Assembly: GCA_040757775.1 (NCBI GenBank)
Contig: JBFLWQ010000002.1
Coordinates: 1 to 64,000 of the forward strand
DNA: 64,000 bases
Source: Thermodesulfobacteriota bacterium
GTDB lineage: Bacteria > Desulfobacterota > UBA8473
Direction: 5' to 3'
Every line of letters starts with the position of its first letter. The first letter of the stretch is position 1. The notes beneath the pieces are model-generated. The model was not told the origin of the DNA and did not search any database. It was given only the letters and a program-made list of their open reading frames with translations. A program made the position numbers and the translations under genes. This document shows positions 3,382 through 58,616 of the stretch, piece by piece.

Positions 3382-3391
3382 ATAGATTCTT

Positions 3392-6931: not shown

Positions 6932-6961
6932 GAAATAAATATATGTTCAACCAAACCCGAG

Positions 6962-7003
6962 ACTGAGACCATTTTTCCTTTCCAAAGATGGTCTCAGTTT
7001 TTT
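6962..7003 (+). terminator. Rho-independent terminator/attenuator between binding protein and permease genes
   Basis: A perfect 11-bp inverted repeat (6962-6972 ACTGAGACCAT; 6988-6998 ATGGTCTCAGT) with a 15-base loop is followed by a run of six T (6998-7003) and a C. It lies 30 bases after the binding-protein stop and just before the ribosome site of the livH gene. It would end most transcripts after the binding protein and let a minority read into livHMGF. Confidence 0.88.
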
Positions 7004-7019
7004 CTTACAGGAGGTGGGA

Positions 7020-7913: not shown

Positions 7914-7927
7914 GTTCTTGAGTTCTT

Positions 7928-8872
7928 ATGGATAAGAAAGACTCTCTTATACTCTTATTTCTCACTGTCTGCCTGGTTGTTTTTCCTTTCATTGTTACCA
8001 ATACCTACTACATAAGCACTATGGTATTTGTAGGCATCCACGGAATCATTGCCATCGGACTAAGCCTGCTTATGGGATATGCAGGACAAATCTCTATCGG
8101 TCACGCTGCCTTCTTCGGGCTTGGTGCTTATACTTCTGCAGTCCTCACTGCCAAATTAGGTTTTCACCCCTGGAGCGCTTTTTTTCTAGGTATCCTTTTA
8201 TCTTCTTGTATAGCGTTGATTATAGGCATTCCGTCTTTGAAATTGAAGGGTCATTATCTCGCCATGGCCACTTTGGGTTTTGGAGAAATTACTTACATAG
8301 TATTTAATGAGCTAACAGATATTACCGGTGGACCGTCTGGGATTGGAGATATACCAAAAATTTCTCTTGCCGGATATGTCATGAACACAGATATAAAATA
8401 CTACTTTTTTGTGTGGGCATTCTTATTGCTGATCCTTGCCCTTTCGCTGAATTTGATTCATTCCAGGATAGGTAGGGCACTCAGGTCGATTCATGATAGT
8501 GAAGTTGCAGCAAATGCCATGGGGGTTAACACCAGCAAACTCAAAATTCAGGTCTTTCTGATTAGTGCTGTTTTTGGCTCTGTTGCAGGTAGTCTATACA
8601 CCCATTACGTAACTTTTGTTAGTCCAAGTTCTTTTAGCCTTTTTTTCTCAGTCCTTTTGGTGATGATGGTGGTGATAGGAGGGATGCATAGTGTCTGGGG
8701 CGCCTTAATCGGGGCTGCCCTTTTAACCATACTGCCAGAATTCTTAAGGGCTTTAAAAGACTTTGAAATATTTGTTTATGGTGCTGTTCTTCTTTTGATA
8801 ATGATTTTTTTGCCTAGGGGATTAAGCGGTGGGTTAGAATATCTATTTAACAGATTAATCAAAAAGCTGTAA
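7928..8872 (+). CDS. livM: Branched-chain amino acid type ABC transporter permease LivM
   Basis: This is the second transmembrane subunit of the Liv-type transporter, 314 residues with about nine hydrophobic segments. Recognisable family pieces are GLSLLMGYAGQISIGHAAFFGLGAYTSA near the N-terminus, LKGHYLAMATLGFGEI, and the cytoplasmic loop RIGRALRSIHDSEVAANAMGVN that contacts the ATPases. It begins 14 bases after livH and ends 6 bases before livG, consistent with a single operon. Confidence 0.94.
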   Translation: MDKKDSLILLFLTVCLVVFPFIVTNTYYISTMVFVGIHGIIAIGLSLLMGYAGQISIGHAAFFGLGAYTSAVLTAKLGFHPWSAFFLGILLSSCIALIIGIPSLKLKGHYLAMATLGFGEITYIVFNELTDITGGPSGIGDIPKISLAGYVMNTDIKYYFFVWAFLLLILALSLNLIHSRIGRALRSIHDSEVAANAMGVNTSKLKIQVFLISAVFGSVAGSLYTHYVTFVSPSSFSLFFSVLLVMMVVIGGMHSVWGALIGAALLTILPEFLRALKDFEIFVYGAVLLLIMIFLPRGLSGGLEYLFNRLIKKL

Positions 8873-8878
8873 CCTTTT

Positions 8879-9661
8879 ATGAATATAAAACGGACAACGG
8901 ACAATATGATACTCCATGCTTCTGAAATTAAAAAGACCTTCGGAGGATTGGTGGCTGTTTCTGATCTGGATTTTACGGTAAGGGAATGCCAGATAAAGGC
9001 CATTATTGGACCGAATGGAGCAGGTAAAACCACGGTTTTCAATTTGATCTCAGGGATTTTACCGCCAACCGGTGGCGAGATTCAATTTCAGGGGAAATCT
9101 ATCACTCGACTTAAATCCTACAGAATTTCTTCCTTGGGTATATCCCGCACCTTCCAAAATGTTCAATTGTTTAGTAATATGTCTGTTATAGAGAATGTTA
9201 TGATTGGAAGACACCCAAGGACCAGTTCTGGTATAATGAGTTCGATCCTGTCGTTGCCAAAGAAAAGAAAAGAAGAAAAAGAGGTCAGAAAAAGGGCTAT
9301 GGAGTATCTCGAATTTGTTGGTTTGGGAGATAGGTTTGACGAGTCCCCGGAGAATCTTCCTTTTGGAAAACAAAGACTATTAGAAATCGCAAGGGCTATG
9401 GCTACCGAGCCCAAATTGCTATTGCTTGACGAGCCAGCATCAGGTCTAAATACGAAAGAGACCCAAAACCTATCCCGTTTGATTACAGAAATACGGGGTA
9501 GGGGTATTACAATTCTCCTGGTAGAGCATGATATGGAGTTAGTAATGGGTATATCAGATGAAATTATGGTACTCAACTCTGGTCAAAAGATTGCAGAAGG
9601 ACTTCCCAGGGAGATCCAGGAGAATGATGAAGTGATAAAGGCATACCTGGGAGAAGATTAA
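8879..9661 (+). CDS. livG: ABC transporter ATP-binding protein LivG
   Basis: This cytoplasmic ATPase drives the Liv-type importer. It has Walker A GPNGAGKTT (about residue 48), the LivG-type signature region LPFGKQRLLEIARAMA (a variant of LSGGQ: PFGKQ), Walker B LLLLDEPASGL, and the H-loop LLVEHDMELVM. The 260 residues match the family. Two starts are possible, ATG 8879 and ATG 8906 (MILHASEIKKTFGG). The second gives the more usual LivG N-terminus, and neither has a clear ribosome site. Frame and function are not in doubt. Confidence 0.94.
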   Translation: MNIKRTTDNMILHASEIKKTFGGLVAVSDLDFTVRECQIKAIIGPNGAGKTTVFNLISGILPPTGGEIQFQGKSITRLKSYRISSLGISRTFQNVQLFSNMSVIENVMIGRHPRTSSGIMSSILSLPKKRKEEKEVRKRAMEYLEFVGLGDRFDESPENLPFGKQRLLEIARAMATEPKLLLLDEPASGLNTKETQNLSRLITEIRGRGITILLVEHDMELVMGISDEIMVLNSGQKIAEGLPREIQENDEVIKAYLGED

Positions 9662-9742
9662 GCAAAACTTTGCTTTACTAATGTGCATAATAATCTTTAA
9701 AATTAAGGCTAAATCAACACAAATGACAGCATAAGGCATAAA

Positions 9743-10480
9743 ATGCTAAGGATAAAAAATATAAATACATATTACGGAAAGGTTCATGCGCTGAAAAACG
9801 TCTCAATACATGTCAATGTCGGAGAGATCGTAGCATTAATAGGGGCCAACGGTGCCGGTAAAACAACCGTTTTAAACTCCATCTCTGGGATTACTCCTCC
9901 TAGGGAAGGGGAGGCCATTTTCAGGGGAGTCAATATTTTAGGTCTTCCTACTAATCAAATAGTCAAGATGGGGATATCTCAGATCCCAGAGGGAAGGCAA
10001 ATATTTGCCCCTTTAACCGTATCAACCAACCTGGAACTAGGGGCATACCATAGGTACAGCAGAAAAAACAAACCTTACTTGAAAAAAGACATAGAAGAAA
10101 TTTTTTCTTTTTTCCCTATACTTAGAGAAAGGAAAAATCAAATAGCAGGTACCTTAAGTGGGGGGGAGCAACAGATGTTAGCAATTGGCAGGGCATTAAT
10201 GTCAAAGCCCTCTCTGCTTCTCTTAGATGAGCCCTCTATGGGGCTGGCTCCGATGATCTGCAAAGATATCTTTAGAATGATATCCAAGCTCAGGGATGAA
10301 CTCAAAACCACCATACTGATAGTAGAACAAAATGCCAAAGCCGCTCTCCAGCTTGCTGATCGAGGATATGTAATAGAGACAGGGAAGATTATAATGGAAG
10401 AAAATAGTAAGGGCCTCCTTAACAACAAGGAGGTTCAAAGGGCATATCTAGGGAAAGAAAAGAAGGAAATATGGGAGTAA
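9743..10480 (+). CDS. livF: ABC transporter ATP-binding protein LivF
   Basis: This is the second ATPase of the importer, 245 residues. Walker A is GANGAGKTT near residue 35, the signature is [16 protein letters not shown], and Walker B is [13 protein letters not shown], with the [19 protein letters not shown] segment typical of LivF. It is separated from livG by 81 bases with no recognisable feature and is followed after 22 bases by a second paaK gene. It completes a full five-component transporter. Confidence 0.94.
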
Positions 10481-10502
10481 CCCCCCTTTTGGGAGATTTA
10501 AA

Positions 10503-11804
10503 ATGAATATTTGGGATAAAGATTATGAATGTATGCCAAGGGAAGACCTGGAACAATTGCAATTGGAAAGACTACAGTCTACCCTAAACAGGGTGTATAA
10601 AAACGTGCAGTTTTACAGAAAGATATTTGATAAACTTAATGGTTTGCCTGAAGATATCCGGTCGATTCAGGATTTGTCCAACCTTCCTTTCACCACAAAG
10701 GAAGATCTCAGAAACAGTTATCCCTACGACATGTTTGCAGTCTCTCTGAGGGAGGTTGTAAGATTGCATTCTACATCGGGAATGACAGGTAAACCTATTG
10801 TTGTTGGTTACACAAAAAACGATTTAAAAAACTGGAGCAATTTAGCTGCCCGTATATTAACCGCTGGTGGGGTTACAAAAGATGATATGGTGCAGATAGC
10901 GTTCGCATATGGGTTACTTACAGGTGCTTTTGGACTCCATTACGGTGCAGAGAGGATAGGTGCTTCGGTAATTCCTACATCTTCCGGGCATACAGAAAAG
11001 CAAATAATAATAATGAAGGATTATAAGACTACCACGCTGGTGTGTACCCCATCCTATGCCCTAAGGATAGCGGATACCATGGTAAATATGGAAATTGATC
11101 CGAAAACATTGAATTTAAGACTCGGTCTATTCGGTGGAGAACCATGGTCAGAAAATATGAGAAAAGAGATAGAAGGAAGATTATATATCGATGCAGTAGA
11201 TAACTATGGATTGAGTGAGGTGATAGGGCCTGGGGTTGCTACTGAATGCCAATATAAAGATGGACTCCATCTCTTCGAAGACCATTTTATTCCGGAGATT
11301 ATCGATCCCTCAACAGGCACCGTTTTGCCACCTGGAGAAAAAGGGGAACTAATCATTACCACCCTTACCAAGGAGGCATTCCCCATGATTCGTTTCCGAA
11401 CAGGAGACATAACAAAATTAAATTGGCAACAATGTGAGTGTGGTAGAACCTGCGTTAGAATAGAAAAGATCATGGAAAGAACAGATAACATGCTGATAAT
11501 CAAAGGTGTTAGCGTGTTTCCATCCCAGATCGAGCAGGTTTTGTATGAGTTTGAAGGATGTGAACCTCATTTTCAATTGATTATTGACCGAAAGGACAGA
11601 ATGGATGTGCTGAAAGTGTTAGTGGAAGTATCAGAGAGGATATTCTTTGATGAGATGAAAAAACAGGGGAAGCTTTTAGAGAATATTAAGCAGAGGCTTT
11701 CCAGTGTATTAGGGGTTAACGTTGACGTTAAACTTGTGGAACCTCAATCTATGGAAAGGGATTTAAAAAAGTACAAAAGAATAATTGACAATAGGGTTAT
11801 TTAA
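10503..11804 (+). CDS. paaK: Phenylacetate-CoA ligase (second copy)
   Basis: This is a second aryl-CoA ligase of exactly the same length (433 residues) as the copy at 3.9 kb and clearly homologous throughout. The adenylation P-loop is [14 protein letters not shown], with Met where copy one has Thr. [20 protein letters not shown] and [20 protein letters not shown] are the later motifs. Cys-containing segments (CECGRTCVR) are conserved in both copies. Its position immediately after livF suggests that the imported compound is activated here. Two diverged ligases in one operon suggest two aryl substrates such as phenylacetate and indole- or hydroxyphenyl-acetate. That last point is inference. Confidence 0.93.
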
Positions 11805-43798: not shown

Positions 43799-44968
43799 TT
43801 AAGGAGCACCTGTATTTATGCGCAATCCTCCTCCTGTGGTGTAAGCGTCTCTGTATGTAGCAGGATACAAAGCAAAATCCAGCATGGGGGTTAACCTGGA
43901 AACATAGTAGTGTATATCCCCGATTACACTTCGGGGGACATAGACGACATCGCCACTTTGGAGGGATATGTTTTGACTGAAATCACCTTGCTTAAGAAAG
44001 TCTTTCAGGTTTGCAACGAGCACATTGGTTTTAGCTGGATATCCTCTTATTACCAGTATATTTTTTTCTTTGGCATCATAGGTATATCCCCCTGCAAGCG
44101 ATAAAGCAGTTACAAGGTCTATTTCATGCTTGAATGAATATGCCCCTGGTGACTTAACCTCTCCAAGCACAAAGACCTTGTCCTGAGTTGTCGGATATTC
44201 AGGGATTATTATCATATCCCCTGCATCTAATATAATATTTTGACTGGTATCTCCCTGAAACATAGTTCTGTATAAGTTTACAGTGTATGTCTTCCCTCCT
44301 CTAACTAACCTCGTCCTCTTTAAATCTGCAGTAGTTTTAGCTCCGCCTGCTGTTACAAGCAAATCAATAATTGTCGTCTTGCCTTTTAAAGGATAATTGC
44401 CCGGCCCTGATGGCATTGGTTGTGTTGTTGATGTTCCCTGAATAATATTTACCTCCCCGAGTATCTGTGTCTTCTTGCTCACAAATTCCTTTATTAAAAC
44501 ATCTACCCTCGGATTTTTAACAAAGTCTGCCAGCCTTTCGGTAATGGTTTTATCCACCTGTCTTGCAGTAAGTCCGGAAACGTTAACATCCTCTAAAAAT
44601 GATATAGATATATTTCCGTCAGAACGTACCGTCATTGTGTGTTTCTTCTCTTCGGTTCCCTCCCATAGAGATATCTCCAAGACATCTCCAGGACCTATAA
44701 TGTACTCTGATATCCCAAATTCTTCAGTAAAAACCTTGTTTTTGGTAATTTTGCTCATCTCAAGAATTTCTTTTTCTCTTTCCTTTTCTTCCTTTTCAGC
44801 ATCAACTGATTTTGCTTCTATCTTGCTCACTGGTGTGAATTGTCTTGAGGATACAGGCTTTGGGGCAGCAGCGCATCCCAAAAACAGGAACAAACATGGC
44901 AGGACTATCACAAAAATGGTCTTTTTAAGAACACTTCTATTATTTTTTTGGCATTCAATCGACAACAT
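43799..44968 (-). CDS. Outer-membrane polysaccharide export lipoprotein (Wza type)
   Basis: The 389-residue protein has a lipoprotein signal with lipobox LFLGC (Cys32). It is followed by a Poly_export domain (YIIGPGDVLEISLWEGTEEKKHTMTVRSDG) and two SLBB domains (KTQILGEVN..., DKVFVLGEVKSPGAYSFKHE). It would form the outer-membrane channel for the exopolysaccharide. It is the first gene of the Wza-Wzc pair and lies at the upstream end of the large minus-strand locus. Confidence 0.92.
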   Translation of the reverse strand: MLSIECQKNNRSVLKKTIFVIVLPCLFLFLGCAAAPKPVSSRQFTPVSKIEAKSVDAEKEEKEREKEILEMSKITKNKVFTEEFGISEYIIGPGDVLEISLWEGTEEKKHTMTVRSDGNISISFLEDVNVSGLTARQVDKTITERLADFVKNPRVDVLIKEFVSKKTQILGEVNIIQGTSTTQPMPSGPGNYPLKGKTTIIDLLVTAGGAKTTADLKRTRLVRGGKTYTVNLYRTMFQGDTSQNIILDAGDMIIIPEYPTTQDKVFVLGEVKSPGAYSFKHEIDLVTALSLAGGYTYDAKEKNILVIRGYPAKTNVLVANLKDFLKQGDFSQNISLQSGDVVYVPRSVIGDIHYYVSRLTPMLDFALYPATYRDAYTTGGGLRINTGAP

Positions 44969-47089: not shown

Positions 47090-47107
47090 GGATTCAAGGG
47101 GTCAAGG
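47090..47107. repeat. Intergenic GGATTCAAGG-type short repeat at a convergent junction
   Basis: The sequence GGATTCAAGGGGTCAAGG, the same motif as at 41.0 kb and 45.4 kb, lies exactly between the convergent permease and nucleotidyltransferase genes and slightly overlaps the 3' end of the latter. It may have been used as a recombination point or be a decayed mobile repeat. No terminator hairpin is evident. Confidence 0.5.
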
Positions 47108-48307
47108 AGCCAAGCTCTTCCCTAAAATGATCACAATCCTGAAGCAATGCAAAAACACCTCATTTACCCGGCGAAGATAATCCATATAGCTTATCCTTGA
47201 TTGTTGAATATATCTCCTCTGGGCTATTATGTGACGGGGAGGGAAAAATGTCCTCCCGACAAATCTCACCTTCCTGAATAATCCCCTGTTCATGGATAGA
47301 TGAACCAGATAGCTCAAGCCCGGAGGTCGGTCATTATTTGATATGGCATTTATAAATATCCTTTCGCCAAGGGTGAAATGTTTTGGCATCAGTCCCAGCA
47401 ATGCCCTTTCAGGTATTTTTGACGCGATAAATCCAGAGACAAAGTAAAGAGCTATATAAACCATTCTATCCAGTTTGAATTTAAGGCTGTATTTAATCAG
47501 CCTATCCCAGTCTAATCTATCCTGATAAGAATTTATGGCTTCATTAATATCACATAAAAGACTGAGTTTACTTAAAGAATGGGTAACCCTCAGGGCATGT
47601 TCTGATAGGTGGATAATAAGGTGGTGAGGTGCCATGACCAGCGTTTCTACACTGGCAACACTTGCCTTTTGTGCATCCTGCCAGATATCCTCCATTTTTA
47701 TATTATTGATGTATGAATCATTTGGTATTGTAGAATTGACAAAATGCCAGTGAATGTGAAACGAAGGAGAGTTAGTGGAAGCGTTTCGATAATCAAGGGT
47801 GGTTAAATATGTTGATGTAAAATCAATACCATCAAGGGATCGGTCAGATGGAAAGTATCCGATACCTTCTAGATGTTCATTTATGCTAAAAAGGTCTTCT
47901 TTTTTTACCAGCAGGTCTACATCGGACATTGGTCTTAAAGCCAGATTCCCATATGCCATTTCAGCTAATGCCGCTCCTTTGAGGACTATTACCCGAAGCC
48001 CTGCTTTATTGAGTACCTTAAGGATATTCCTTAATTCATTGAAAATTAAGGTGTTTTTACTGGCACTTAGATAATAATCTTTTCTTAGTTCATCAGTAAC
48101 ATATTTGGGGGTATAATTCTTATTTATGAGAACCTTTGGAAGCCTAATAAAAACCAAAGGCGAGATGCCCTCCCCTCTCGCCTTTTCTAGAAAATAATCC
48201 CAATCTATCTTATCTCTTTGTATTTCAATTAACCAATCTATATCCTTACCGCTGATTTCTGTCTGACAGCAAAGGAGCAACAACTTATCTTCCGTTAGCC
48301 AGGTCAT
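47102..48307 (-). CDS. NTP_transf_5-like nucleotidyltransferase family protein
   Basis: The 401 residues show the family's core: VLKGAALAEMAYGNLALRPMSDVDLLV, with KGAAL (110-114) and D129/D131 as likely metal ligands of a polymerase-beta-like nucleotidyltransferase. PF14907-like proteins are known in lasso-peptide and other peptide clusters and in exopolysaccharide loci, where they may adenylylate or otherwise modify product or acceptor. Its ATG lies 4 bases across the stop of a preceding reading frame (ATGA), which suggests coupling to the remnant ORF upstream. It is the last gene of the modified-peptide cluster in the transcription direction. Confidence 0.78.
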   Translation of the reverse strand: MTWLTEDKLLLLCCQTEISGKDIDWLIEIQRDKIDWDYFLEKARGEGISPLVFIRLPKVLINKNYTPKYVTDELRKDYYLSASKNTLIFNELRNILKVLNKAGLRVIVLKGAALAEMAYGNLALRPMSDVDLLVKKEDLFSINEHLEGIGYFPSDRSLDGIDFTSTYLTTLDYRNASTNSPSFHIHWHFVNSTIPNDSYINNIKMEDIWQDAQKASVASVETLVMAPHHLIIHLSEHALRVTHSLSKLSLLCDINEAINSYQDRLDWDRLIKYSLKFKLDRMVYIALYFVSGFIASKIPERALLGLMPKHFTLGERIFINAISNNDRPPGLSYLVHLSMNRGLFRKVRFVGRTFFPPRHIIAQRRYIQQSRISYMDYLRRVNEVFLHCFRIVIILGKSLAP

Positions 48308-48492: not shown

Positions 48493-49686
48493 TTATGGTT
48501 TAACGACCCAAACACCACTATTTTCCCCCTCCATTGTCTTTAATCCTGCCATCCTGACTTCTTCTAAAATTTCCTTGAAGCTAAAAAAGAAATGGCAAAA
48601 ATTTAGTTTCTTTGGATTGCTAACTGAAGAAACATACCTAACCATTAAATCACCCGGCTCTGAGTCAAACTTTTCCTTTAAAAAGAAGTTTCTAATTCTC
48701 CGGAAGAAACCCATAATATTTAATCTTGAAAATAATCTTCTGTCTTTATAATAAGCCGAAAAAACAAGGATACCATCGGGTTTAAGAATATCTCTGATTT
48801 TTTTTAACGTTTCTATCCTAAGTTTTTTAGTTGGAATGTAGGAATAGACCTCTCTACTAAATAGAACATAATCAAAATACTTTGCAGGGCAGTCAATATC
48901 GGTAACACTTTGTACTTTAAAGCTTATGTTAAGCCCTTCCTTTTTGGCATTTTCTGTAGCCTTAGCAACCATATTAGGAGAGATATCAATGCCCATAACT
49001 TCAAAACCCATCTTAACTAAGGCAATCGCCTCTCTTCCAGCACCACATCCCACATCAAGGAGTTTGGCTTTGGGTTTCATGTATCTTTCAATTATATTTC
49101 TCTCCCATTCCTCAAGCCCTTCTGAAATAAGCTGGGAGTGAAATTCAACTTCCTCTGCACTATTATATTTTTCAGCCACACTATGGAGAGAATCCGCCGA
49201 TTTTTTTACAAATAAATTGGGATTAAAAAGACTAGGGATCTTGCTTAGAAATATCGGGATTTTTATTATGAACGAAAGTCTAAAATAGATGAAATTGATC
49301 AGCCTGGCTAACCCTCTTTCGGTCTTTATCCTATGCCCATTCCTTTCAATTGCCACTACCTTGCCTAACGCATTTTGCATATCAACCTTTTCAGGGGAGC
49401 TAAAGGAAGCATCCCCCTTAATCACCAAGTTCATGTTGCCATTTTCCCTGCATTTATTAATAACGCGGTGTACTGCTACATTGTTTTCAGAAGTTGAGTA
49501 AAATACCACATCCCCTATTTTGAGAGAGGGATTTTTAACTGGACTTACCGTAATAAAATCTCCATTCCGAATAAAGGGACGCATACTAAAGCCTCTTGCC
49601 TGAAAACGGATAGACACATCCCTTTCAAGTAATTCCCTGCTTAATTTCAATAAGTTGGAATGGTTTAAAAAGATTGGATTTTTCAC
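48493..49686 (-). CDS. Fused S26-type signal peptidase-like domain and SAM methyltransferase
   Basis: Residues 1-125 are a SipW/S26B-like serine peptidase domain: GFSMRPFIRNGDFI with Ser34, VAVHRVI with His73 (Ser-His type, as in SipW and eukaryotic signal peptidases), and the KGDAS box D (90-94). Two hydrophobic stretches (about 128-155) follow. Residues about 190-397 form a class I methyltransferase: LLDVGCGAGREAIAL (209-223), VMGIDISPNM and FDYVLFSREVYSYIP. Signal-peptidase-like S26 proteins occur in peptide-natural-product and exosortase-linked loci. The methyltransferase fusion is unusual. It may cleave a leader and methylate the product. It follows the HprK-like gene with 4 bases between. 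Confidence 0.83.
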   Translation of the reverse strand: MKNPIFLNHSNLLKLSRELLERDVSIRFQARGFSMRPFIRNGDFITVSPVKNPSLKIGDVVFYSTSENNVAVHRVINKCRENGNMNLVIKGDASFSSPEKVDMQNALGKVVAIERNGHRIKTERGLARLINFIYFRLSFIIKIPIFLSKIPSLFNPNLFVKKSADSLHSVAEKYNSAEEVEFHSQLISEGLEEWERNIIERYMKPKAKLLDVGCGAGREAIALVKMGFEVMGIDISPNMVAKATENAKKEGLNISFKVQSVTDIDCPAKYFDYVLFSREVYSYIPTKKLRIETLKKIRDILKPDGILVFSAYYKDRRLFSRLNIMGFFRRIRNFFLKEKFDSEPGDLMVRYVSSVSNPKKLNFCHFFFSFKEILEEVRMAGLKTMEGENSGVWVVKP

Positions 49687-49690: not shown

Positions 49691-50536
49691 CTAAATATCT
49701 CTTACGAAGTCTACAATTCTTTTATCTGGGAGGAAATTGAGTCTACAACAAGGAACTTCTCTGACCAACTCATCAATAAATCCTAAAGTAGATTCCATAC
49801 CTTTTTTGTCCCATAAGGTTGGGAAAGAGCAAACCAGCAATTTTGAAGCAGCGTCAACCCATTTTATTCCTTCTACCTTGTTCTCACGGGCATGGTTAAG
49901 AAAGAAAATTCTTTCCAGAGGAGCCTTTTCCGGCGAACATAGTTCCGCATCTCCGTGCCAGGGGGTGCCGTGCATCCAGAAGCGACCATCAATCTTGCGG
50001 ATAATTACCCGGTCATCGCTAAGTATAGTGGCATCCTTTTTGTCTTTCCAGAAGTCAGCTATAGTACTCTTTCCCGCTCCAGATACGCCGGCGAAGAGTA
50101 ACCCATGACCGCAATCACTGACTCCGCAGGCATGAATCAATGTTCCTTGGCGCTGACTCAGTAATGCAATAGTCATAAACTGGTCAAAGGGGTAACCAAA
50201 ACTGCTAAAACCTGATCCGACCACATCTTTATCGCTATAGATGTCAGCCTGCGTAAAATCCTCCGGGAATAGCGCCATTTCATCTCCGATATGGAAGAGA
50301 TATGAGGCATCCAGTTTAGAGATGGTCCAATCAGGAAATGGATTATATATCTTTAACTGTTGCTGAGGCAAAGCGAACGGCTCAAAATGGCGCTGGACAA
50401 ATACCTCCGGCTCAGCAAAAACCAGAAAAGGCTGATATCTCAGCCGATTATGGTCGTGTCTGAGGTCATAGCCCGGGGCACGAACCGAAAAAGTAATCCC
50501 GCCAATACAGATTCTTATCTCATCGAGCTTTTCCAT
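49691..50536 (-). CDS. HPr-kinase/PEPCK-like P-loop protein of a peptide-modification cluster
   Basis: I start the gene at ATG 50536 (MEKLDEIRICIGG), with GGAAGAA a few bases upstream. A TTG nine bases earlier lacks a ribosome site. The 281 residues have Walker A GVSGAGKST (about 150-158), LSDDRVIIR as a Walker-B-like Asp-Asp segment, and GTPWHGDAE. This pattern is typical of the HPr(Ser)-kinase-like proteins found in SynChlorMet, lasso and related RiPP cassettes, some of which phosphorylate precursor peptides. It lies 10 bases after the precursor stop, so it is very likely expressed with it. Confidence 0.85.
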   Translation of the reverse strand: MEKLDEIRICIGGITFSVRAPGYDLRHDHNRLRYQPFLVFAEPEVFVQRHFEPFALPQQQLKIYNPFPDWTISKLDASYLFHIGDEMALFPEDFTQADIYSDKDVVGSGFSSFGYPFDQFMTIALLSQRQGTLIHACGVSDCGHGLLFAGVSGAGKSTIADFWKDKKDATILSDDRVIIRKIDGRFWMHGTPWHGDAELCSPEKAPLERIFFLNHARENKVEGIKWVDAASKLLVCSFPTLWDKKGMESTLGFIDELVREVPCCRLNFLPDKRIVDFVRDI

Positions 50537-50546
50537 TTCTTCCAAA

Positions 50547-50711
50547 TTAAGAACCTAAGGTTGTCCTACATCCATTTGTTGAGCAAGCTCTGCCAGTCCT
50601 CCCAATAGTGTCTGTAGGACCAGCCTTACAAATTCCCAGGACTGCCTCGTCGATGTTTAATTTAACCTGTTTTAGCTGTGGTCTTTGCCATGGGCGTTTT
50701 TTCTTTTCCAT
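50547..50711 (-). CDS. Probable RiPP precursor peptide (54 aa)
   Basis: A short reading frame of 54 codons is preceded by a near-ideal ribosome site AAGGAGGTGA (50718-50727), 6-7 bases before ATG 50711. It ends in TAA at 50547-50549. The leader part (1-29) has a basic start (MEKKKRPWQRP), then PQLKQVKLNIDEAVLGICK, the P-x-L-x-x-V-x-L...EAVL..CK pattern that I recall from many PqqD/radical-SAM-linked precursor peptides. The rest (30-54) is a 25-residue Gly/Thr-rich core with Arg38, Arg41, Arg49, Cys43 and Cys48 and the ending TTLGS. The frame starts within the last 50 bases of the upstream radical SAM gene. The arginines fit the UPF0489 (peptide arginase-type) protein in the same cluster. The peptide product and cleavage site are inference. 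Confidence 0.8.
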   Translation of the reverse strand: MEKKKRPWQRPQLKQVKLNIDEAVLGICKAGPTDTIGRTGRACSTNGCRTTLGS

Positions 50712-51798
50712 CCCTTTTCACCTCCTTGCTACCAAAATTCTTCTGCCTTAGCTGGGTAACCTGGCAGAGAAAATCGACTACTCTTTGCGGGTTACCTTTT
50801 TCCAGTTCTGCCCAGCCTGGACATTGCTCACATAGATAAACCAGTTCGCAGTTCCGGCAAGGGAAGTCTGCGTCCATCCTCTGGTTAATCAGCTTAGGCA
50901 TTATTTCTTGCCAGCCCTGAGAAAAACCAATGCTTCTCAGATTATAGCCCTGACTCTGTGTCATGGTGCAGGGGCTGACCTGTCCGTAGGGATTAACGTT
51001 AAAACCAGTTAAGCCAGCACTACAAAGATAAAGACTATCTGTTTGCAGACCTTGTAATTCTTTAAAGTTCTCCTCTAATTGCTGAGCACGCTTTTTATCT
51101 GCAAAGTCAAAGTCAATCACCTCCTGGGGTGATAACCGCCATTGAGAAGGTTCTGGAGAACCGTCCAGCCTGGGATTAATAAAGGGATCAAATCTGAACC
51201 TGACACCTAAGGTTTCCGCAAACCTTTTGATACCAAGAAACTCGTCTTTATTTAAGGTCATAACTACGGTTTTAAGGGTCAGCGATAGCTTTTTCGCCAG
51301 GATGTGCTTAATAGCCGAGTGGGTCTTTCTGAATGAACCTTTAGATCGGGTAATCCTTTCATGGGTCTTTTCGCTCAGACCATAAATGGTTATTTCAATA
51401 TCACAAGGCGGGTATTCAGCAAATTGTTCTATCAATGTGGAGGTCATCAGGGTGCCGTTAGTAAAGAGTTCAATAATAAACCCTCTGCCTTTGGCATAGG
51501 AGTAAATTTCCCAGAAATCAGGCCGCAGAAGAGGTTCTCCCCCGGTGATTAATAACCGGAGACAACCGGCATCAGCCATCTCATCCAGGCACTGGCAGAT
51601 CTCAGAATAGGTAAGTTCTTGGGTTTTAGCTGACCGGTCATGTGGCGGCAAATTACAATAGCAGTGAACACAATGCAGGTTACACCGATAGGTTAGCTCC
51701 AGTGCCCCGCCATAAGGTATCCGATACTGAAATATCTTAGGTCTAATTTGATGCCCAAATGCCTGGTAACTTAATTGTGGTATTGAGCAAATAGTCAT
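50662..51798 (-). CDS. Radical SAM/SPASM peptide-modifying enzyme
   Basis: The 378 residues have the radical SAM motif YRCNLHCVHCYC with Cys39-x3-Cys43-x2-Cys46 and TGGEPLLRPD (86-95). The C-terminal SPASM/twitch region has Cys259, Cys277, Cys314, Cys317, Cys323, Cys326 and Cys345, enough for auxiliary Fe-S clusters. This is the layout of PqqE-like enzymes that install carbon-centred links on RiPP precursors. It overlaps the upstream PqqD gene by 4 bases (ATGA) and the precursor gene starts within its 3' end. The last 20 residues are basic and low in complexity, and that part overlaps the precursor gene's ribosome site. Confidence 0.9.
   Translation of the reverse strand: MTICSIPQLSYQAFGHQIRPKIFQYRIPYGGALELTYRCNLHCVHCYCNLPPHDRSAKTQELTYSEICQCLDEMADAGCLRLLITGGEPLLRPDFWEIYSYAKGRGFIIELFTNGTLMTSTLIEQFAEYPPCDIEITIYGLSEKTHERITRSKGSFRKTHSAIKHILAKKLSLTLKTVVMTLNKDEFLGIKRFAETLGVRFRFDPFINPRLDGSPEPSQWRLSPQEVIDFDFADKKRAQQLEENFKELQGLQTDSLYLCSAGLTGFNVNPYGQVSPCTMTQSQGYNLRSIGFSQGWQEIMPKLINQRMDADFPCRNCELVYLCEQCPGWAELEKGNPQRVVDFLCQVTQLRQKNFGSKEVKRDGKEKTPMAKTTAKTG
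50718..50727 (-). promoter_or_regulatory. Very strong ribosome binding site for the precursor peptide
   Basis: AAGGAGGTGA on the minus strand is complementary to almost the whole anti-Shine-Dalgarno tail and lies 6-7 bases before ATG 50711. It is embedded in the coding region of the radical SAM gene. It decides the precursor start and suggests high translation relative to the enzymes. Confidence 0.8.
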
Positions 51799-52088
51799 AA
51801 GATAACTTCCTTAATATTAGTTATAGCCTCTATCTTAATCAATTTCTGTAAAAAGTCAAGGATATCTTTCTCCGCGGTCTTACGCTTAACCTCAAAAACA
51901 CTGAGCATTTGGGTGATGATTTCGTTCACAGTTCTCTTACCGTCGATCAAGTTCCAGACCTCCGTGGCAACCTCGTTCAGATGCAGAATCTGAAGTTCAT
52001 CCTGATCAACCAGCACTGCTTCCTCTTCAATCATCTTCCATTGAATATCCGGATTCTTAGTGAGCCGAACCTCGGGTGTTAGTCTCAT
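51795..52088 (-). CDS. PqqD-family peptide-recognition protein
   Basis: These 97 residues have the PqqD/RRE pattern: WKMIEEEAVLVDQDELQILHLNEVATEVWNLIDGKRTVNEI is the family core (strands then the L-N-x-x-A-x-x-(V/I)-W helix), and ...EKDILDFLQKLIK is the last helix. PqqD-like proteins bind the leader peptide and present it to the radical SAM partner, encoded just downstream with a 4-base overlap. The upstream TPR/UPF0489 gene also overlaps it by 4 bases. It is the only intact PqqD copy inside the coupled operon. Confidence 0.9.
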   Translation of the reverse strand: MRLTPEVRLTKNPDIQWKMIEEEAVLVDQDELQILHLNEVATEVWNLIDGKRTVNEIITQMLSVFEVKRKTAEKDILDFLQKLIKIEAITNIKEVIL

Positions 52089-53590
52089 ATTGTTTTCCTA
52101 AGGTAAAGGGGGATTGATTGAGTAAATATTTTCAGGGCTCTTCGATAATGCCTGAATGCCTTCGTCCAAAATCCTTTCCTCATGTATAGTTTCCCCAATC
52201 TAATCTGGACTTTGACATCCAACAGTCCAAGTCGGATAGACTTTTTATAATACCCAATTGCCCCTGAGACTTTTCCATTCTTCTCAAAGACTATTCCCTG
52301 CAAATAATAGACCAATGGATCGGTTGAATCCAGGGCAATGGATTTCTCCAGGGCTAAACGGGCGGGATCAATTTGTCCGGTTTTAAGATAAGCATAGCCT
52401 AATCCAAGATAGGCTGCGGCGTAGTCTGGTCTCAATTCAATCGCCCTTTGATAACTATCAATCGCCTTGTGCCACGCTTTTTGTTGGAGATAGACATTAC
52501 CTAATCCACTGAAGGCATCAGGATTCTCTGGGTCGAGTTGCAATGCCCGCTGATACTCTTGCTCAGCCGTCAACCATTTGCCAAGTGCTTCGTATACTGG
52601 CCCATTATTATTATACCGGGTGCGATAGCTCTGATCCAGGGCGATTGATTTCTGGTAGTAAAGGGTAGCCTGATCATATTGCCCGATATTGTAATGGAGT
52701 CGTGAAAGATTATAAAAAATAGAAGGATCTTCTGAGGTTAATCTTAATACGCTTTCGTATTGAGCTATCGCTGACTGGTTTTTGTCCTGAAATTCGTAGA
52801 GAAGAGCCTCCCTTTTAGCGGTAAGAATTTCTTGCTGAGTTCTGTCTAATAACGGTTGCTGGAGACGTAATTTTAACTCATCACCCAGATATTTATATTT
52901 AAGTGGTGTAAAGCCTCCCTCAACCGAATAGGCAATAGTTACTATCTCTGTCTTTAACCGCTTCGTGTTTAACCTTTCAACCAATTCTTGAGGCCAAAGC
53001 CAGGGTTTGCGATCAGGCGCAAGGCTATTCACGATGGATGGCGTTACCAGGAAGTCCAGATCAATATCTAAAAGCACTGGCTCATCAAATTCGGGCAGAT
53101 GGGCTAAGGTGGATGCTTGAACCTTCTTATTGTAAAATTGAGTGGATATAGAATTATTGGACTGTTCAATTTTTTTATCTTGGTGAGATTTTATCTTAAT
53201 AAGATTCTTAAATATGTTTGCTATGGCTTTGCGTGTTTTGTGATTAGAAAAACTTCCGTCTGGCAGGATCCAATAAAATTCGCGAACGATACCATGCTGC
53301 ATGGCGGGACAGATATAATTGCCGATATGTACCATTTTCTCTTTCTTTTTAGAGGTCGGATTCCAGATGGTTTGACTCTCAAGGAGTGTTTTTAATTCAT
53401 CTTTATTCTTTGCCTCAAGGATCTGGGTTAAGTCCTTTTCCGGTACCCAGCCAAAGTCAATATGGGCATCAATGTGAACCAAAATTTTATCTTTAACTCC
53501 GGCATTCTGCCAAACAGGAAGTACCTCATTGTGGTTTTCTAGTAATACAACATTTTCACAGTTAACAGATTTAACCGATGGAATCTTCAT
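52085..53590 (-). CDS. UPF0489 (peptide-arginase-like) domain fused to TPR repeats
   Basis: Residues about 1-245 form a UPF0489 domain. ENHNEVL contains His20, HIDAHIDFGW contains His39, Asp41, His43 and Asp45, and LLDIDLDFL supplies Asp175, Asp177 and Asp179. This arrangement reproduces the D-x-H-x-D and D-x-D binuclear-metal ligands of arginase. Members of UPF0489 (OspR in landornamide biosynthesis, as I recall) convert peptide arginine to ornithine. Residues about 260-490 contain six or seven TPRs (e.g. AFSGLGNVYLQQKAWHKAI). The TPR part could bind protein or peptide. The gene lies between two radical SAM genes and overlaps PqqD by 4 bases. The arginase activity is family-based inference. 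Confidence 0.85.
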   Translation of the reverse strand: MKIPSVKSVNCENVVLLENHNEVLPVWQNAGVKDKILVHIDAHIDFGWVPEKDLTQILEAKNKDELKTLLESQTIWNPTSKKKEKMVHIGNYICPAMQHGIVREFYWILPDGSFSNHKTRKAIANIFKNLIKIKSHQDKKIEQSNNSISTQFYNKKVQASTLAHLPEFDEPVLLDIDLDFLVTPSIVNSLAPDRKPWLWPQELVERLNTKRLKTEIVTIAYSVEGGFTPLKYKYLGDELKLRLQQPLLDRTQQEILTAKREALLYEFQDKNQSAIAQYESVLRLTSEDPSIFYNLSRLHYNIGQYDQATLYYQKSIALDQSYRTRYNNNGPVYEALGKWLTAEQEYQRALQLDPENPDAFSGLGNVYLQQKAWHKAIDSYQRAIELRPDYAAAYLGLGYAYLKTGQIDPARLALEKSIALDSTDPLVYYLQGIVFEKNGKVSGAIGYYKKSIRLGLLDVKVQIRLGKLYMRKGFWTKAFRHYRRALKIFTQSIPLYLRKTI

Positions 53591-53591: not shown

Positions 53592-55487
53592 TTACTTTAG
53601 CTCAATAAACCCTTCTCTTAGTAATCGCTTCAGTAATACCTCAAGTTTCTCTTGAACCATAGCTGAAGTATCTAAAGGTTGCACATCTTTTAGCTTTGCC
53701 ATTAGTTCGGTACCGCTGAACCGGCATTTTATTAATTTAATCAGCTCTTTTTCCTGATCATTCATCATCAGGTAGCTGCCGTCTGTTTTATTAAGGAGAT
53801 ACCAGCCTTTTGAAGAGGCATTGTTCAGACTAAAGGCGATGGGGATAAGATAAACTTCCTTTGCGAGAACCGGTTTTTTATCCAGGTTAATTTCGGGAAC
53901 AGGTGGTTTATCATATCGATCCATAAGACCCCAGCAAAGTTTTTGCAGGTTATGTGCCTCTGCCTGGGTCATCATATCACCGGTTGGTGTAAATTCTGTA
54001 AAGAACTTAAAGGGAAGTGCTGGATCCCTTTTGTACTCCAGCCCGTAGCGCATCGGGTCATTATAAACATTATTGCCCGGGGTAAGGTAATAGACATTAA
54101 AGGTTATACAACTAATGAATTGCCGGTGTTCAATCAAAAACTGCACTGTATCCAGTCCTTTCTCAACCGTTTCAGTCGGTAGCCCCAGCATGCACTGGAG
54201 ATAAACATCAATGCCGGCATTATGGCAGTCGCGTATGACCTTTAAAGAGGTCTTGCGGTGATTCCCCTTGTGCACAGAAGCACAAACCCGGTCATTGGCC
54301 GATTCAAACCCGAAGTTAATCTGTCTGCAACCCGCCCGCGCCGCCAGGGTAAATATCTCCTCAGAAAATTGGGAATCACATCGAGCCATTGTCCACCACC
54401 TAATTTTAATACCTTCAGCGATGATCTGTTCTGAAATAGACTTCATTTGTTGAGGCGCAAGAGCGGGATCGGAAAACATTAAATCGGTTACCGGATACTG
54501 ATCAACCAGAATTTTAATGTCACGGACTGCCAAAGCGGGAGTTTTACGACGATAGCGCGGTTTCGGCAAAGGCAGGTCAACACAATAATCACATCTGCCC
54601 CAGTAACAACCGCGTGAAGCCTCAAAAGGAAGTGTCATTTTACCGTGGCCACTGGCATCATATTCGTTAAGTGGTAAGCCTTCGAAGTCAGGGGAGGGCA
54701 GTTGATCCAAATCTTCCTCAGTGGATAAAGGACTAACAACCCAGCGGTTATCCGCTCTGTATATCAAATTAGGCACACAGTTAAGCGATCCTTCTGCTTG
54801 AAGTGTGTGAATAAGACGGGCTAGTGGTGTTTCACCCTCAAAATATATAAAGCCATCAAAAAGTGAAACTAAATCGGGACGATTGGCGAGTTCATCCCGG
54901 TAAAGCGAAACCCATTGTCCACCAAGGATAATTTTGAGTTCCGGATTCGTTTTCTTGACTAAATTACAAAGGGTAAATGTCGGGATTACCTGAGAAGGTG
55001 AAGTAACCGAGATGCCCAGGAGGTTAACCCCCTGCTTAATGATGCCTTCAACAATGGCCTGTTCGGTAAAAAATTGATAAAAGGTATTCTCTTCAATATC
55101 GTTAAGATAACGTAAAAGATTGGATGAAGCAAGGAGCCGTTCGGTAAAGTAGAACGAGGAATTGGTATTGTTGTTGTATGCTAAAAAGGGCATCCCTAAG
55201 TCATCTCGAGATTCATCAGGAAGCAAGTGAGAATAATATCTATTTTGCAACTTTTCCGCGAAATGCTTTTTAAGAAGATGTTTAAGAATAGGCGTTGGGC
55301 GGAGCAATTTTTTATCGAGTTTAACTGTTACCTTGCCCCATAAAAAATCACGGTAAGCAATATTGTAATCGGCTTGGGTGACCGGAAAGCCGTGGGTTTT
55401 TAGATAACCAACTAAGGCAGGTGTACCCAAAGGCGGAACACCATATTCATAATCCGGTGGGATACAGAGTTGGGTCTTGATAATCAT
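53592..55487 (-). CDS. B12-binding-type radical SAM protein with C-terminal PqqD-like domain
   Basis: The 631 residues begin with a Rossmann-like B12-binding-type domain (LLGISVTSPSQVIPTFTLCN, IILGGQWVSLY), but the cobalamin DxHxxG motif is not evident, so cobalamin use is doubtful. The radical SAM core has SRGCYWGRCDYC with Cys294-x4-Cys299-x2-Cys302, a spacing seen in RiPP-maturation rSAM families. The C-terminal 80 residues (GSYLMMNDQEKELIKLIKCR ... LLKRLLREGFIELK) resemble a PqqD/RRE winged helix, giving it its own leader recognition. The start ATG lies in an ATGA overlap with a broken pqqD frame just upstream. It could be an epimerase, C-methylase or cross-linking enzyme. Confidence 0.87.
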   Translation of the reverse strand: MIIKTQLCIPPDYEYGVPPLGTPALVGYLKTHGFPVTQADYNIAYRDFLWGKVTVKLDKKLLRPTPILKHLLKKHFAEKLQNRYYSHLLPDESRDDLGMPFLAYNNNTNSSFYFTERLLASSNLLRYLNDIEENTFYQFFTEQAIVEGIIKQGVNLLGISVTSPSQVIPTFTLCNLVKKTNPELKIILGGQWVSLYRDELANRPDLVSLFDGFIYFEGETPLARLIHTLQAEGSLNCVPNLIYRADNRWVVSPLSTEEDLDQLPSPDFEGLPLNEYDASGHGKMTLPFEASRGCYWGRCDYCVDLPLPKPRYRRKTPALAVRDIKILVDQYPVTDLMFSDPALAPQQMKSISEQIIAEGIKIRWWTMARCDSQFSEEIFTLAARAGCRQINFGFESANDRVCASVHKGNHRKTSLKVIRDCHNAGIDVYLQCMLGLPTETVEKGLDTVQFLIEHRQFISCITFNVYYLTPGNNVYNDPMRYGLEYKRDPALPFKFFTEFTPTGDMMTQAEAHNLQKLCWGLMDRYDKPPVPEINLDKKPVLAKEVYLIPIAFSLNNASSKGWYLLNKTDGSYLMMNDQEKELIKLIKCRFSGTELMAKLKDVQPLDTSAMVQEKLEVLLKRLLREGFIELK

Positions 55488-55650
55488 AGAGCAATTTTAA
55501 CACTACCGATTTGTCCCATTTGAGCAAGGATAGTTTTCATGCCCTCTCCGACCTCTGCGGAAGTAACATCGAACTCTTGGAGCAGTATCTCTTTTATCTC
55601 ATTGACTTGACGTTTGTTCCCAGATGCGTGCAGCAGTCTCATTCAGTTCT
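55484..55650 (-). pseudogene. Broken PqqD-like gene (N-terminus lost, one frameshift)
   Basis: The minus strand encodes LNETAARIWE, then after a frame shift VNEIKEILLQEFDVT, ending in a TGA that overlaps the ATG of the radical SAM gene (ATGA, 55484-55487). This is the C-terminal half of a PqqD protein. A 30-base stretch (55617-55646) is identical to 56460-56489 in the intact PqqD gene. The strict overlap with the radical SAM start shows that this copy once belonged to the operon. No start codon or complete N-terminal part remains. Confidence 0.75.
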
Positions 55651-56129: not shown

Positions 56130-56328
56130 TCCTATGCTCCTCTACGATTTTTTGAATCTCGTTTAATTTCCTCCTATTTAGCCCATGATATACAGATAAC
56201 GACATAATAGGTTTCAACCAAAATTTTGCTTCGCCATCCTCGCCCGTCACATGAATATGTATTCGTTTTTCTTCATTTGAAAGAAAATAAAATCTGTAGC
56301 CTTTCTCTCTAAATATTGTGGGGCTCAT
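56086..56328 (-). CDS. DUF4160-family protein
   Basis: These 80 residues begin MSPTIFREKGYRFYFLSNEEKRIHIHVTGEDGEAKFWL, the DUF4160 pattern (P-T-I...GYRF.F.S.E...HIHV...G.AKFWL). The C-terminal helix is LNEIQKIVEEHRNEIIEAW. DUF4160/DUF2442 partners are found in many genomes and have been proposed as toxin-antitoxin-like. It overlaps the preceding PqqD gene by 4 bases (ATGA). Confidence 0.78.
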   Translation of the reverse strand: MSPTIFREKGYRFYFLSNEEKRIHIHVTGEDGEAKFWLKPIMSLSVYHGLNRRKLNEIQKIVEEHRNEIIEAWQTHFGKR

Positions 56329-56609
56329 ATTATTGCTTTTATCCCCTCTAACTGCTGCAAGTGTTCTATAATATCCTTTTCAGCTTCCTCTGGCGTTACC
56401 TCAAACTCTTCTACTACCTTTTCTTTTATTCTTCCAACCTTTGTTTCACCGTCTATCATTTCCCAGATGCGTGCAGCAGTCTCATTCAGGGTAAAGATAC
56501 TCTCCAGATCCCCCACATTTTGCCTGATGGGGACCAGTATAAACTCATCAGCTATCTTTCTCGATACAATGGAATCGCTCTTCCTGTAAATCCTCTCATC
56601 AAATTCCAT
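56325..56609 (-). CDS. PqqD-family peptide-recognition protein (second intact copy)
   Basis: This 94-residue PqqD-like protein has SIVSRKIADEFILVPIR, LESIFTLNETAARIWEMIDGETKVGRIKEKV and EEAEKDIIEHLQQLEGIKAII. AGGGAGG occurs about 11 bases before its ATG. It overlaps DUF4160 by 4 bases. It is the parent of, or sister to, the two decayed copies further downstream. It may serve the same radical SAM enzymes, but the inserted DUF genes now separate it from them. Confidence 0.87.
   Translation of the reverse strand: MEFDERIYRKSDSIVSRKIADEFILVPIRQNVGDLESIFTLNETAARIWEMIDGETKVGRIKEKVVEEFEVTPEEAEKDIIEHLQQLEGIKAII
56329..56384. repeat. 56-bp perfect direct repeat, copy 2 (of 55723-55778)
   Basis: This copy lies in the 3' end of the intact PqqD gene. 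A second, 30-base block (56460-56489) also recurs exactly at 55617-55646. The order of the blocks differs between the two places, consistent with two tandem pqqD relics rather than one simple duplication. Confidence 0.9.
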
Positions 56610-56721: not shown

Positions 56722-57804
56722 TTATCCAGCAACGGCATTTAAATCAGGCAGATCTCCTTCATCAACTGCCCCTGTTATATAGAGTATCGGTGTATCTGAT
56801 AATTTAACACGTTGTGTTTTATCCAGCTTCTTTTTTTGAGAGTCGAATAAGACCTCTACAGTAGGGCGTAGTGGACGGGCTTCGTCAACTTCGATCACCC
56901 TCCCGATGTAACCTGAATTTAATTTAACATAACTGTATAGAGGAAATATGGAAAGTCGCTCAACCAACGCCTTTATGATGTTGGTAGGAAAGAATCCATG
57001 CAAAGTATTCAATATTTCCTTTATTGCGTGATGAGGAAGGAGATATTTCTTATATGACCTCGAATGGGAAATTGCTTCATAGACATCGGCGAGACCAATG
57101 ATCTTGGCGTTCTCATTGATTTCCTCCCCCTTTAGTCCACGGGGATAACCCTTGCCGTTTTCCCTCTCATGTTCCTGAAGGGCTATTTCGGCTAACCATG
57201 CGTATTCTTCTCCTAAAGAACTCAGAATCTCAAATCCATATTCAGTATGTCTTTTTATCATATCAAACTCTTCATTATTCAGAGCCCCATGTTTTTTGAC
57301 TATCTCGTCAGGTATCTTCCACATCCCCACATCATGGAGCAATCCAGCGACCCCGAGTTTAAACAGTTGTTCTCTTGAATATAAAAGCCCTATACCGATT
57401 TCTATAGCAAAGATAGCCACATTAACCATATGAAGTACGAGATAATCTAAAGGTTGCCCAATGGAAGATGCGTTCAGCAAAAGTTTATCCGTTTTTTGGT
57501 TATTCTGTAGCCTGGTTGTAAGCATTTCATGTGGTCGCAGATTATCTACAATCGCTTCTGAGATGTTAAACAGTGGACCAATCTGAAAATTTACCCCCTC
57601 TTTTATTTTAAAACCTATTTCCTCCACGTATTGAAGAGCTTCTCTGAAGACCTTATCAGGGTCTGATTTATCTGTTGTGAAAATAGCCATAGAATCATGG
57701 TCAGATTCAGGTTGGAAAGGAGGGGATTTTTTGGTTCTTTTCTTTTCCGGTTTTACCCCTTTCGATTCTATTTTCTCTTTAATAATGTCCTTGAATTCAA
57801 CCAT
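56722..57804 (-). CDS. HD-GYP domain phosphodiesterase-like protein
   Basis: The 360-residue protein has a variable N-terminal region (1-110) and an HD-GYP domain: LLHDVG with His157-Asp158, HERENGKGYPRGL with the GYP at 219-221, and LADVYEAISHSRSYK. HD-GYP proteins hydrolyse cyclic-di-GMP. The C-terminal segment (about 290-350) is beta-rich (GYIGRVIEVDEARPLRPTVEVLF), often attached to this family. No receiver or membrane domain is seen, so control probably comes from another protein. It lies just downstream of the ExeA-like ATPase gene and upstream of the peptide cluster. Confidence 0.88.
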   Translation of the reverse strand: MVEFKDIIKEKIESKGVKPEKKRTKKSPPFQPESDHDSMAIFTTDKSDPDKVFREALQYVEEIGFKIKEGVNFQIGPLFNISEAIVDNLRPHEMLTTRLQNNQKTDKLLLNASSIGQPLDYLVLHMVNVAIFAIEIGIGLLYSREQLFKLGVAGLLHDVGMWKIPDEIVKKHGALNNEEFDMIKRHTEYGFEILSSLGEEYAWLAEIALQEHERENGKGYPRGLKGEEINENAKIIGLADVYEAISHSRSYKKYLLPHHAIKEILNTLHGFFPTNIIKALVERLSIFPLYSYVKLNSGYIGRVIEVDEARPLRPTVEVLFDSQKKKLDKTQRVKLSDTPILYITGAVDEGDLPDLNAVAG

Positions 57805-57815: not shown

Positions 57816-58616
57816 TCAGGTTTGTTCATTAATTGATTCCTGTACCACTATGGAATCAATTTCCTTCACCTTTGTGCTGTAACCTACCAGAAGGCTAAGA
57901 TCGCAGATATTATTGATCTTTCTGGGGATTCCTTTACTATATTCATATATCTTGCTTATGGCTTCCTGGGTAAAGATGTTTTTGGATAGCCCTGCGGTCT
58001 TCAGGCGGAATTGTATATATTGCTCAGTCTCAGACGAACTAAGTGGTTTCAGGGTATATCTTATGGCAATCCTCTGTTCCAGTTGAGGTATTTGTGAGAT
58101 CCCTTCTTTTAACTCTGGCTGGCCAATCAGGATTAGAGTCAACAAAAATCGGTCATCAAGTTGAAAATTAAGGAGAAGTCGAATCTCTTCAGAAATTGAT
58201 TTGTTGCCAATAATCAGGTGTGCTTCATCAATGACCAGTATGGTATCCTTCCCTTTTTCTAAATTATTCAATATCTCATTATTTAAGAGATGCAGTAAAT
58301 CTACCTTCAACCTGTGAGTGGTTTTAATTCCCAGTTGATAAACAATTTCCCGGAGAAAAGAAACAGGGGGCAGGGAAGGATTTGATATAAGGGCAACTTT
58401 AAACTTTTCATCTATCAACCTCTGGACAAAAACACGGCTCAAGAGTGTTTTACCACACCCTATCCCCCCGGTCAACATTGCTGCACCTTTTTGTCCGTTT
58501 GCTGCATAGAGCAGCCTCATCAGAGCTTCTTCATGTTTGGGCGACAGATATAAAAAGTGAGGATCAGGAACGTTTTCAAAGGGGGATAATTTCAATCCCC
58601 AGTATTCTTTGTACAA
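57816..58616 (-). CDS. ExeA/GspA-like AAA ATPase
   Basis: The 266-residue ATPase begins MYKEYWGLKLSPFENVPDPHFLYLSPKHEEAL, the usual start of ExeA/MshM/XrtA-associated ATPases. Walker A is GGIGCGKT (50-57), Walker B is ILVIDEAHLI, and the C-terminal winged-helix part has IYEYSKGIPRKINNICDLSLL. There is no C-terminal peptidoglycan-binding domain as in full ExeA. These ATPases accompany type II secretion and exopolysaccharide/exosortase loci. It is encoded 11 bases upstream of the HD-GYP gene. Confidence 0.87.
   Translation of the reverse strand: MYKEYWGLKLSPFENVPDPHFLYLSPKHEEALMRLLYAANGQKGAAMLTGGIGCGKTLLSRVFVQRLIDEKFKVALISNPSLPPVSFLREIVYQLGIKTTHRLKVDLLHLLNNEILNNLEKGKDTILVIDEAHLIIGNKSISEEIRLLLNFQLDDRFLLTLILIGQPELKEGISQIPQLEQRIAIRYTLKPLSSSETEQYIQFRLKTAGLSKNIFTQEAISKIYEYSKGIPRKINNICDLSLLVGYSTKVKEIDSIVVQESINEQT

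Follow-up and report, generated by a model that had tools for sequence, protein, structure and literature searches.

The locus raises the question of whether a 54-codon frame, lying between a radical SAM/SPASM gene and an HprK-like gene and predicted from the DNA letters to encode a RiPP precursor, is a genuine precursor gene, and of what the neighbouring enzymes would do to its product. The window, i.e. the whole stretch of 64,000 nucleotides that was analysed, contains the following features at this place, with the matches that support each assignment:

47102..48307, minus strand: NTP_transf_5 nucleotidyltransferase (PF14907, 3.1e-44)
48493..49686, minus strand: S24/S26B signal-peptidase-like domain fused to a class I methyltransferase (TIGR02228 sigpep_I_arch, 53.2 bits for a cut-off of 51.85; methyltransferase matches)
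49691..50545, minus strand: HprK-like kinase, putative C-terminal Ser kinase (TIGR04355 HprK_rel_B, 1.8e-9, and ScmC, 2.9e-6, both below cut-off)
50547..50711, minus strand: predicted 54-codon gene of a RiPP precursor (from ATG, 50711, to stop, 50549-50547)
50718..50727, minus strand: ribosome-binding site AAGGAGGTGA, with a 9-nt spacer from AGGAGG to ATG
50662..51798, minus strand: radical SAM/SPASM maturase (PF04055, 8.7e-21; PF13186 SPASM, 19.7 bits for a cut-off of 21.5)
56325..56609, minus strand: second PqqD-type RiPP recognition element, PqqD2 (PF05402, 2.1e-16; best NCBIfam match lasso_PqqD_Bac, below cut-off)

The frame is translated as MEKKKRPWQRPQLKQVKLNIDEAVLGICKAGPTDTIGRTGRACSTNGCRTTLGS, and its coordinates, strand and translation had been given exactly. 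The near-ideal ribosome site claimed for it is present at 50727-50718, and the frame indeed begins within the radical SAM ORF, overlapping its 3' end by 50 bp. The statement that it stops 10 bases before the next start is correct when counted to an in-frame ATG (50536) of the HprK-like ORF, a possible start of an ORF that begins at a TTG (50545) in the ORF list. Arg38, Arg41, Cys43, Cys48 and Arg49 are all located as announced, together with C28, K29 and a C-terminal S54 (50552-50550); the leader would span about residues 1-27 (50711-50631) and the core about residues 28-54 (50630-50550). The two strands of the 64 kb together have only eight AGGAGG-spacer-ATG arrangements, four of which open frames of at least 50 codons. 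An equivalent AGGAGG precedes the precursors of homologous loci L025, L063, L065 and L067-L069, and a G-rich GGGGG that of L024.

Relatives of the peptide were detected by a whole-genome search with the single sequence in two members of the genus (E=2.7e-7 and 8.2e-7), as peptides of 56-57 residues encoded between radical SAM and HprK-like genes. A three-row profile built from these extended the family to other families of the window's phylum (e.g., 4.7e-17 in genome G284), and matched named records from Desulfobacterales, Deltaproteobacteria, Aminicenantes, Acidobacteria, WOR-3, Cloacimonadales and Desulfobulbaceae; of these, the matches in WOR-3 and Cloacimonadales are on short MAG contigs that may be mis-binned. 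With a 15-row profile, precursor matches were obtained in 34 of 297 genomes (~11%) of the Acidobacteriota phylum. Besides the window, ~35 loci drawn from the window's phylum and Acidobacteriota have a peptide ORF flanked by radical SAM and HprK genes, all encoded on one strand; the position of the small ORF is thus conserved, as the original prediction had anticipated. A profile made of 24 Acidobacteriota precursors only ranks the window frame first among 957 stop-to-stop frames (E=2.1e-14; next, 0.2); these precursors having been found via a profile of which the window row was part, the independent support is their shared gene order.

Selection was also expected to be visible, and every finite comparison, made between members more than 60% alike, gives a dN/dS of 0.06-0.56, well under 1. 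The nearest relatives of the window ORF have ~40-45% identity with it and synonymous sites are saturated; purifying selection thus holds for the family rather than for this particular copy, since close orthologues of the window ORF are lacking. No second matching precursor was found elsewhere in the window's genome, where a better candidate might have been located, and none of the viral contigs and plasmids searched holds a relative. Weak single-sequence matches (G001:C241, G007:C154 and others; E 0.005-1) were also recorded, and two that were inspected, in glycosyltransferase-like and argD-like regions devoid of RiPP genes, were dropped. The window peptide and 21 further members gave no credible family match in NCBIfam or Pfam.

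The family is defined by the signature (Y/W)xKPxLxxVxLxxEEAVLxxCK, followed usually by GP, and then by two Cys 4-8 residues apart and a C-terminal Ser or Thr. The leader pattern originally put forward, PxLxxVxL..EAVLxxCK, turns out to be precisely the conserved part; the inclusion of C28-K29 in the signature and the invariant C-terminal Ser/Thr, compatible with an HprK-like kinase, go beyond that earlier description. P11, V16, L18, L25, C28, K29, C43, C48 and S54 are invariant in the first 15 members, and exactly two Cys follow CK in 44 of 54 anchored members. The last residue is Ser in 55 and Thr in 2 of the 57 complete members, and the sole exception among 58 is interrupted by a contig end. 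Such an ending is also present in 14/14 members of a W-KP subfamily, listed from genus-profile matches; as these matches mostly stop before the C-terminus, the W-KP endings cannot be put down simply to the way in which the members were found. This subfamily (WxKPxLxVLVRxxPEEAVLxxCK; L076-L085, L125, L127, L129) sometimes has two precursors per locus and a more varied gene order, and a few copies are without a detected HprK or radical SAM gene nearby.

The core cassette is composed of PqqD, radical SAM/SPASM enzyme, precursor, HprK-like kinase and S24/S26B-like peptidase, often with NTP_transf_5, which is linked to it in L024, L025, L065, L067, L068, L072 and others; PqqD2 is found in nearly all homologous cassettes. 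The radical SAM protein contains CxxxCxxC (C39, C43, C46) and a seven-Cys SPASM-like pattern (C259, C277, C314, C317, C323, C326, C345), the Pfam SPASM match being just under its cut-off; these motifs are invariant in an alignment of three genus members, and NCBIfam matches are of the PqqE/mycofactocin/NirJ type, below cut-off. HprK-like proteins of the family conserve the P-loop GVSGAGKST, DDR and GTPWHG. An AF2 model of the kinase (pLDDT 85) matches PEPCK/HprK structures (Foldseek E 1e-5, with a TM of only 0.3-0.5), and the search against PDB sequences gave weak HprK matches only. An HprK-fold kinase is therefore encoded beside a precursor with a C-terminal Ser, the arrangement of lasso-type C-terminal Ser kinases. 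The S24/S26B-methyltransferase fusion is proposed to be a leader peptidase and tailoring enzyme. The same peptidase is instead fused to a GNAT acetyltransferase in L025 (8253-9284), and in L082 (7430-8458) it has similarity to one. In another genus member (L024, 5270-5754), radical SAM gene and precursor are separated by a ParE-like toxin-antitoxin pair, apparently an insertion.

A small ORF with a conserved leader, adjacent to a recognition element and modifying enzymes, is what characterizes a RiPP precursor; given in addition the synteny and the dN/dS values, the window ORF is almost certainly one, its modification being predicted. Our main reading, to which we give a probability of roughly 0.82, is that it belongs to a widespread radical SAM RiPP family without a Pfam or NCBIfam name and is processed by the route proposed here. 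Alongside the observed ORF, conservation, family-level selection, synteny, motifs and domains, all chemical steps of this route are ones that we infer. The PqqD-type recognition element would bind the leader at YxKPxLxxVxLxxEEAVL. The radical SAM enzyme could then install cross-links at C28, C43 and C48, a thioether being an even bet among thioether and other linkages. The HprK-like kinase probably phosphorylates the C-terminal Ser54, and NTP_transf_5 might put a sugar on this phosphate, as in pseudomycoidin. The S26B-like peptidase might, somewhat doubtfully, cut the leader off near C28-K29.

Between PqqD2 and the radical SAM gene, the window carries an insert of three genes:

51795..52088, minus strand: first PqqD-type RiPP recognition element, PqqD1 (PF05402, 7.7e-18)
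52085..53590, minus strand: UPF0489 (peptide arginase)-TPR protein (PF12640, 31.6 bits for a gathering cut-off of 27)
53592..55487, minus strand: B12-binding radical SAM protein (TIGR03975 RiPP radical SAM C-methyltransferase, 6.9e-32, and PhpK-type, 8.2e-33, both below cut-off)

The original prediction expected radical SAM and UPF0489-TPR genes next to homologous precursors: the former are there, while the latter occur in few clusters, most being without arginase. The identical insert is present in a second genus member (G001, locus L031), the nearest arginase cluster, with its arginase and B12 radical SAM genes; its precursor was not recovered because the contig ends inside the radical SAM gene. 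PqqD1 adjoins the arginase in both arginase-carrying genus members. A 52-codon ORF resembling the C-terminal half of a PqqD domain is also located in the window (55484-55642, minus strand), and L025 and L063 contain similar PqqD fragments, with small DUF4160- and DUF2442-like ORFs next to them.

The UPF0489-TPR protein keeps all six metal ligands of peptide arginases, in E18-N-H20-N-E, D41-A-H43-I-D45 and D175-I-D177-L-D179 (ENHNEVL, DAHID, LDIDLDFL), with metal-binding motifs taken from PMC12703449 and ligand residues from PMC10028609. It scores below the FlmR/OhkR cut-off of NF052474 pept_arginase (5.7e-14; 52.3 versus 350 bits), and its arginase domain matched nothing among PDB sequences; a single-sequence AF2 model of this domain (pLDDT 33) was left out. 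In the window cluster, this enzyme would turn R38, R41 and/or R49 into ornithine, a conversion that we regard as probable, and methylation of the product may come from the methyltransferase and from the B12 radical SAM protein, a possible C-methyltransferase. The composition of the core is consistent with this role, with three Arg (38, 41, 49) and no Lys in the window core compared to 0-1 Arg and 2-5 Lys in the seven closest arginase-free relatives; no arginase was found in seven genomes whose clusters are arginase-free.

Another phylum holds a second arginase cluster (G517, L146), which encodes a precursor with four Arg and no Lys, together with one protein in which UPF0489, TPR repeats and a PqqD domain are fused (G517:C37; 6378-8060 of the locus), three radical SAM genes, HprK, S24 and a methyltransferase. 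The link between Arg and arginase is drawn from these two radical SAM clusters, compared after the fact. In both, a methyltransferase is fused or adjacent to the S24-like gene; it is not arginase-specific, as it is present in three arginase-free W-KP clusters. A UPF0489-TPR homologue also adjoins the cyclase in a lasso cluster (L155, G549:C9:24000-40000; 2009-10587), recognized by its cyclase (E 9.9e-45), lasso PqqD (E 1.7e-22) and lasso precursor (E 1.8e-4), and also holding HprK and two NTP_transf_5-methyltransferase fusions; despite the HprK gene, the peptide encoded by its lasso-like small ORF (4623-4784), which contains Arg, has Ala as its last residue. UPF0489-TPR homologues in G169, G138, G032 and G029 are uninformative on the Arg question, as they are not beside radical SAM RiPP genes. 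At L147-L153 and L130, outside RiPP loci, the N-termini of UPF0489-TPR proteins resemble those of signal-peptide-bearing proteins or lipoproteins; most of these proteins retain their metal ligands, and they are possible exported arginase-fold enzymes.

One could alternatively accept the precursor and consider the arginase as inactive or acting elsewhere, the core Arg then resulting from an ordinary Lys-to-Arg exchange. Such exchanges are common, Arg-rich cores are seen in a few W-KP members without arginase, and some UPF0489-TPR homologues sit outside RiPP loci. This explanation appears unlikely to us, given that all six metal ligands are retained, that arginase, B12 radical SAM and PqqD genes have a co-transcribed layout in two genus members, that an arginase-PqqD fusion accompanies an Arg-rich, Lys-free precursor in another phylum, and that a UPF0489-TPR homologue is also present in a lasso cluster.

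Another explanation, to which we give no more credit, is that the ORF encodes not a secreted natural product but a redox-cofactor precursor or that of a peptide linked to the cell surface or exopolysaccharide. PqqD and radical SAM enzyme would then work as they do for PQQ or mycofactocin, and the peptide would be linked to the envelope through the phosphate and sugar at its C-terminus. Most genomes have one precursor per cassette, and exopolysaccharide-export-type genes are near in the window (TIGR03027-like, 43799-44968; TIGR03015-like ATPase, 57816-58616; c-di-GMP HD protein, 56722-57804), the ATPase-HD pair flanking the cassette also in L067 and L072. Precursors of PQQ or mycofactocin nevertheless lack the wide variability in core length and sequence seen here, from which only the Cys and the C-terminal Ser are exempt, and tailoring domains that differ between clusters (methyltransferase, GNAT, arginase) point to diversified products. 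Finally, a spurious ORF arising from overlap with the radical SAM gene is rejected as very improbable since, short and overlapping as the frame is, with closest homologues only ~40% identical, its position is conserved across phyla even where there is no overlap (L025, L065, L067), the other-phylum profile recovers it, finite dN/dS values are all below 0.6 and ribosome sites are consistent among members.

The reading of a modified RiPP precursor has several consequences. The family is widespread, being scattered in the window's phylum and present in about one in nine of the sampled Acidobacteriota genomes, and its gene clusters are easily overlooked, as no Pfam or NCBIfam model covers the precursor. 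The invariant C-terminal Ser/Thr and the adjacent HprK-like kinase lead to a sharp prediction on capping, and suggest that the lasso-type kinase-nucleotidyltransferase cap is a portable module, also placed on radical SAM peptides. The arginase clusters would extend Arg-to-Orn conversion to two RiPP settings, the window family and the lasso cluster. As a RiPP class, we tentatively propose a radical SAM-cross-linked peptide with a phosphorylated, probably glycosylated C-terminal Ser made by a lasso-type kinase and nucleotidyltransferase, the window representing an ornithine branch that has recruited a TPR-arginase and a B12 radical SAM methyltransferase.

Compared with known systems, the precursor family is apparently undescribed: the types listed in PMC12703449 (NHLP, N11P, SCIFF, SCCRRSCN, DD(I/V)LF, MGXRRSSE) do not include it, and no description of a window-type system was found in open-licence literature on radical SAM RiPP, PqqD and HprK. 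Sactipeptides and ranthipeptides share a radical SAM/SPASM maturase and a Cys-containing core with the window family, which differs by its leader, kinase and C-terminal Ser, its cross-link being putative; it has three Cys in 54 residues instead of the six in forty-five of SCIFF/ranthipeptides. The SynChlorMet cassette (ScmC/D/E/F) likewise brings together an HprK-related protein, a PqqD relative and radical SAM/SPASM enzymes, but all components score far below cut-off, and membership is rejected on the scores of ScmC (26.8 versus 125 bits) and ScmD (35.1 versus 100) and on a precursor that matches no NCBIfam model. Enteropeptins (KgrC/KgrD) also combine radical SAM enzyme, arginase and methyltransferase in one RiPP pathway, with neighbouring Cys and Arg (here C48-R49); KgrD is a PF00491 arginase, unlike that of the window, and the precursors differ. 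The peptide arginases OspR, FlmR and OhkR (PF12640) share the motifs E-x-H-N/H-E, DxHxD and LDIDxD with the window protein, which, unlike them, is TPR-fused and below the NCBIfam cut-off; an arginase beside a precursor with core Arg is reminiscent of ornithine RiPPs (landornamide).

A close parallel concerns kinase-bearing lasso peptides such as paeninodin and pseudomycoidin, in which an HprK homologue phosphorylates the C-terminal Ser. Membership of the lasso peptides themselves is rejected: the scanned cluster proteins have no asparagine-synthetase-like cyclase domain, the B2 transglutaminase-like peptidase (PF13471) has one match in the genome, below cut-off and on another contig, and the window cassette has instead a radical SAM/SPASM enzyme, an S26B-like peptidase and a CK...C...C core. 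Both systems nevertheless have a YxxP-type leader, a PqqD/B1-type recognition element, an HprK homologue, a nucleotidyltransferase and a C-terminal Ser acceptor. Owing to the HprK-like and NTP_transf_5 genes and the invariant C-terminal Ser, the leading prediction, based on homology, is that the window peptide would carry the same cap as kinase-bearing lasso peptides.
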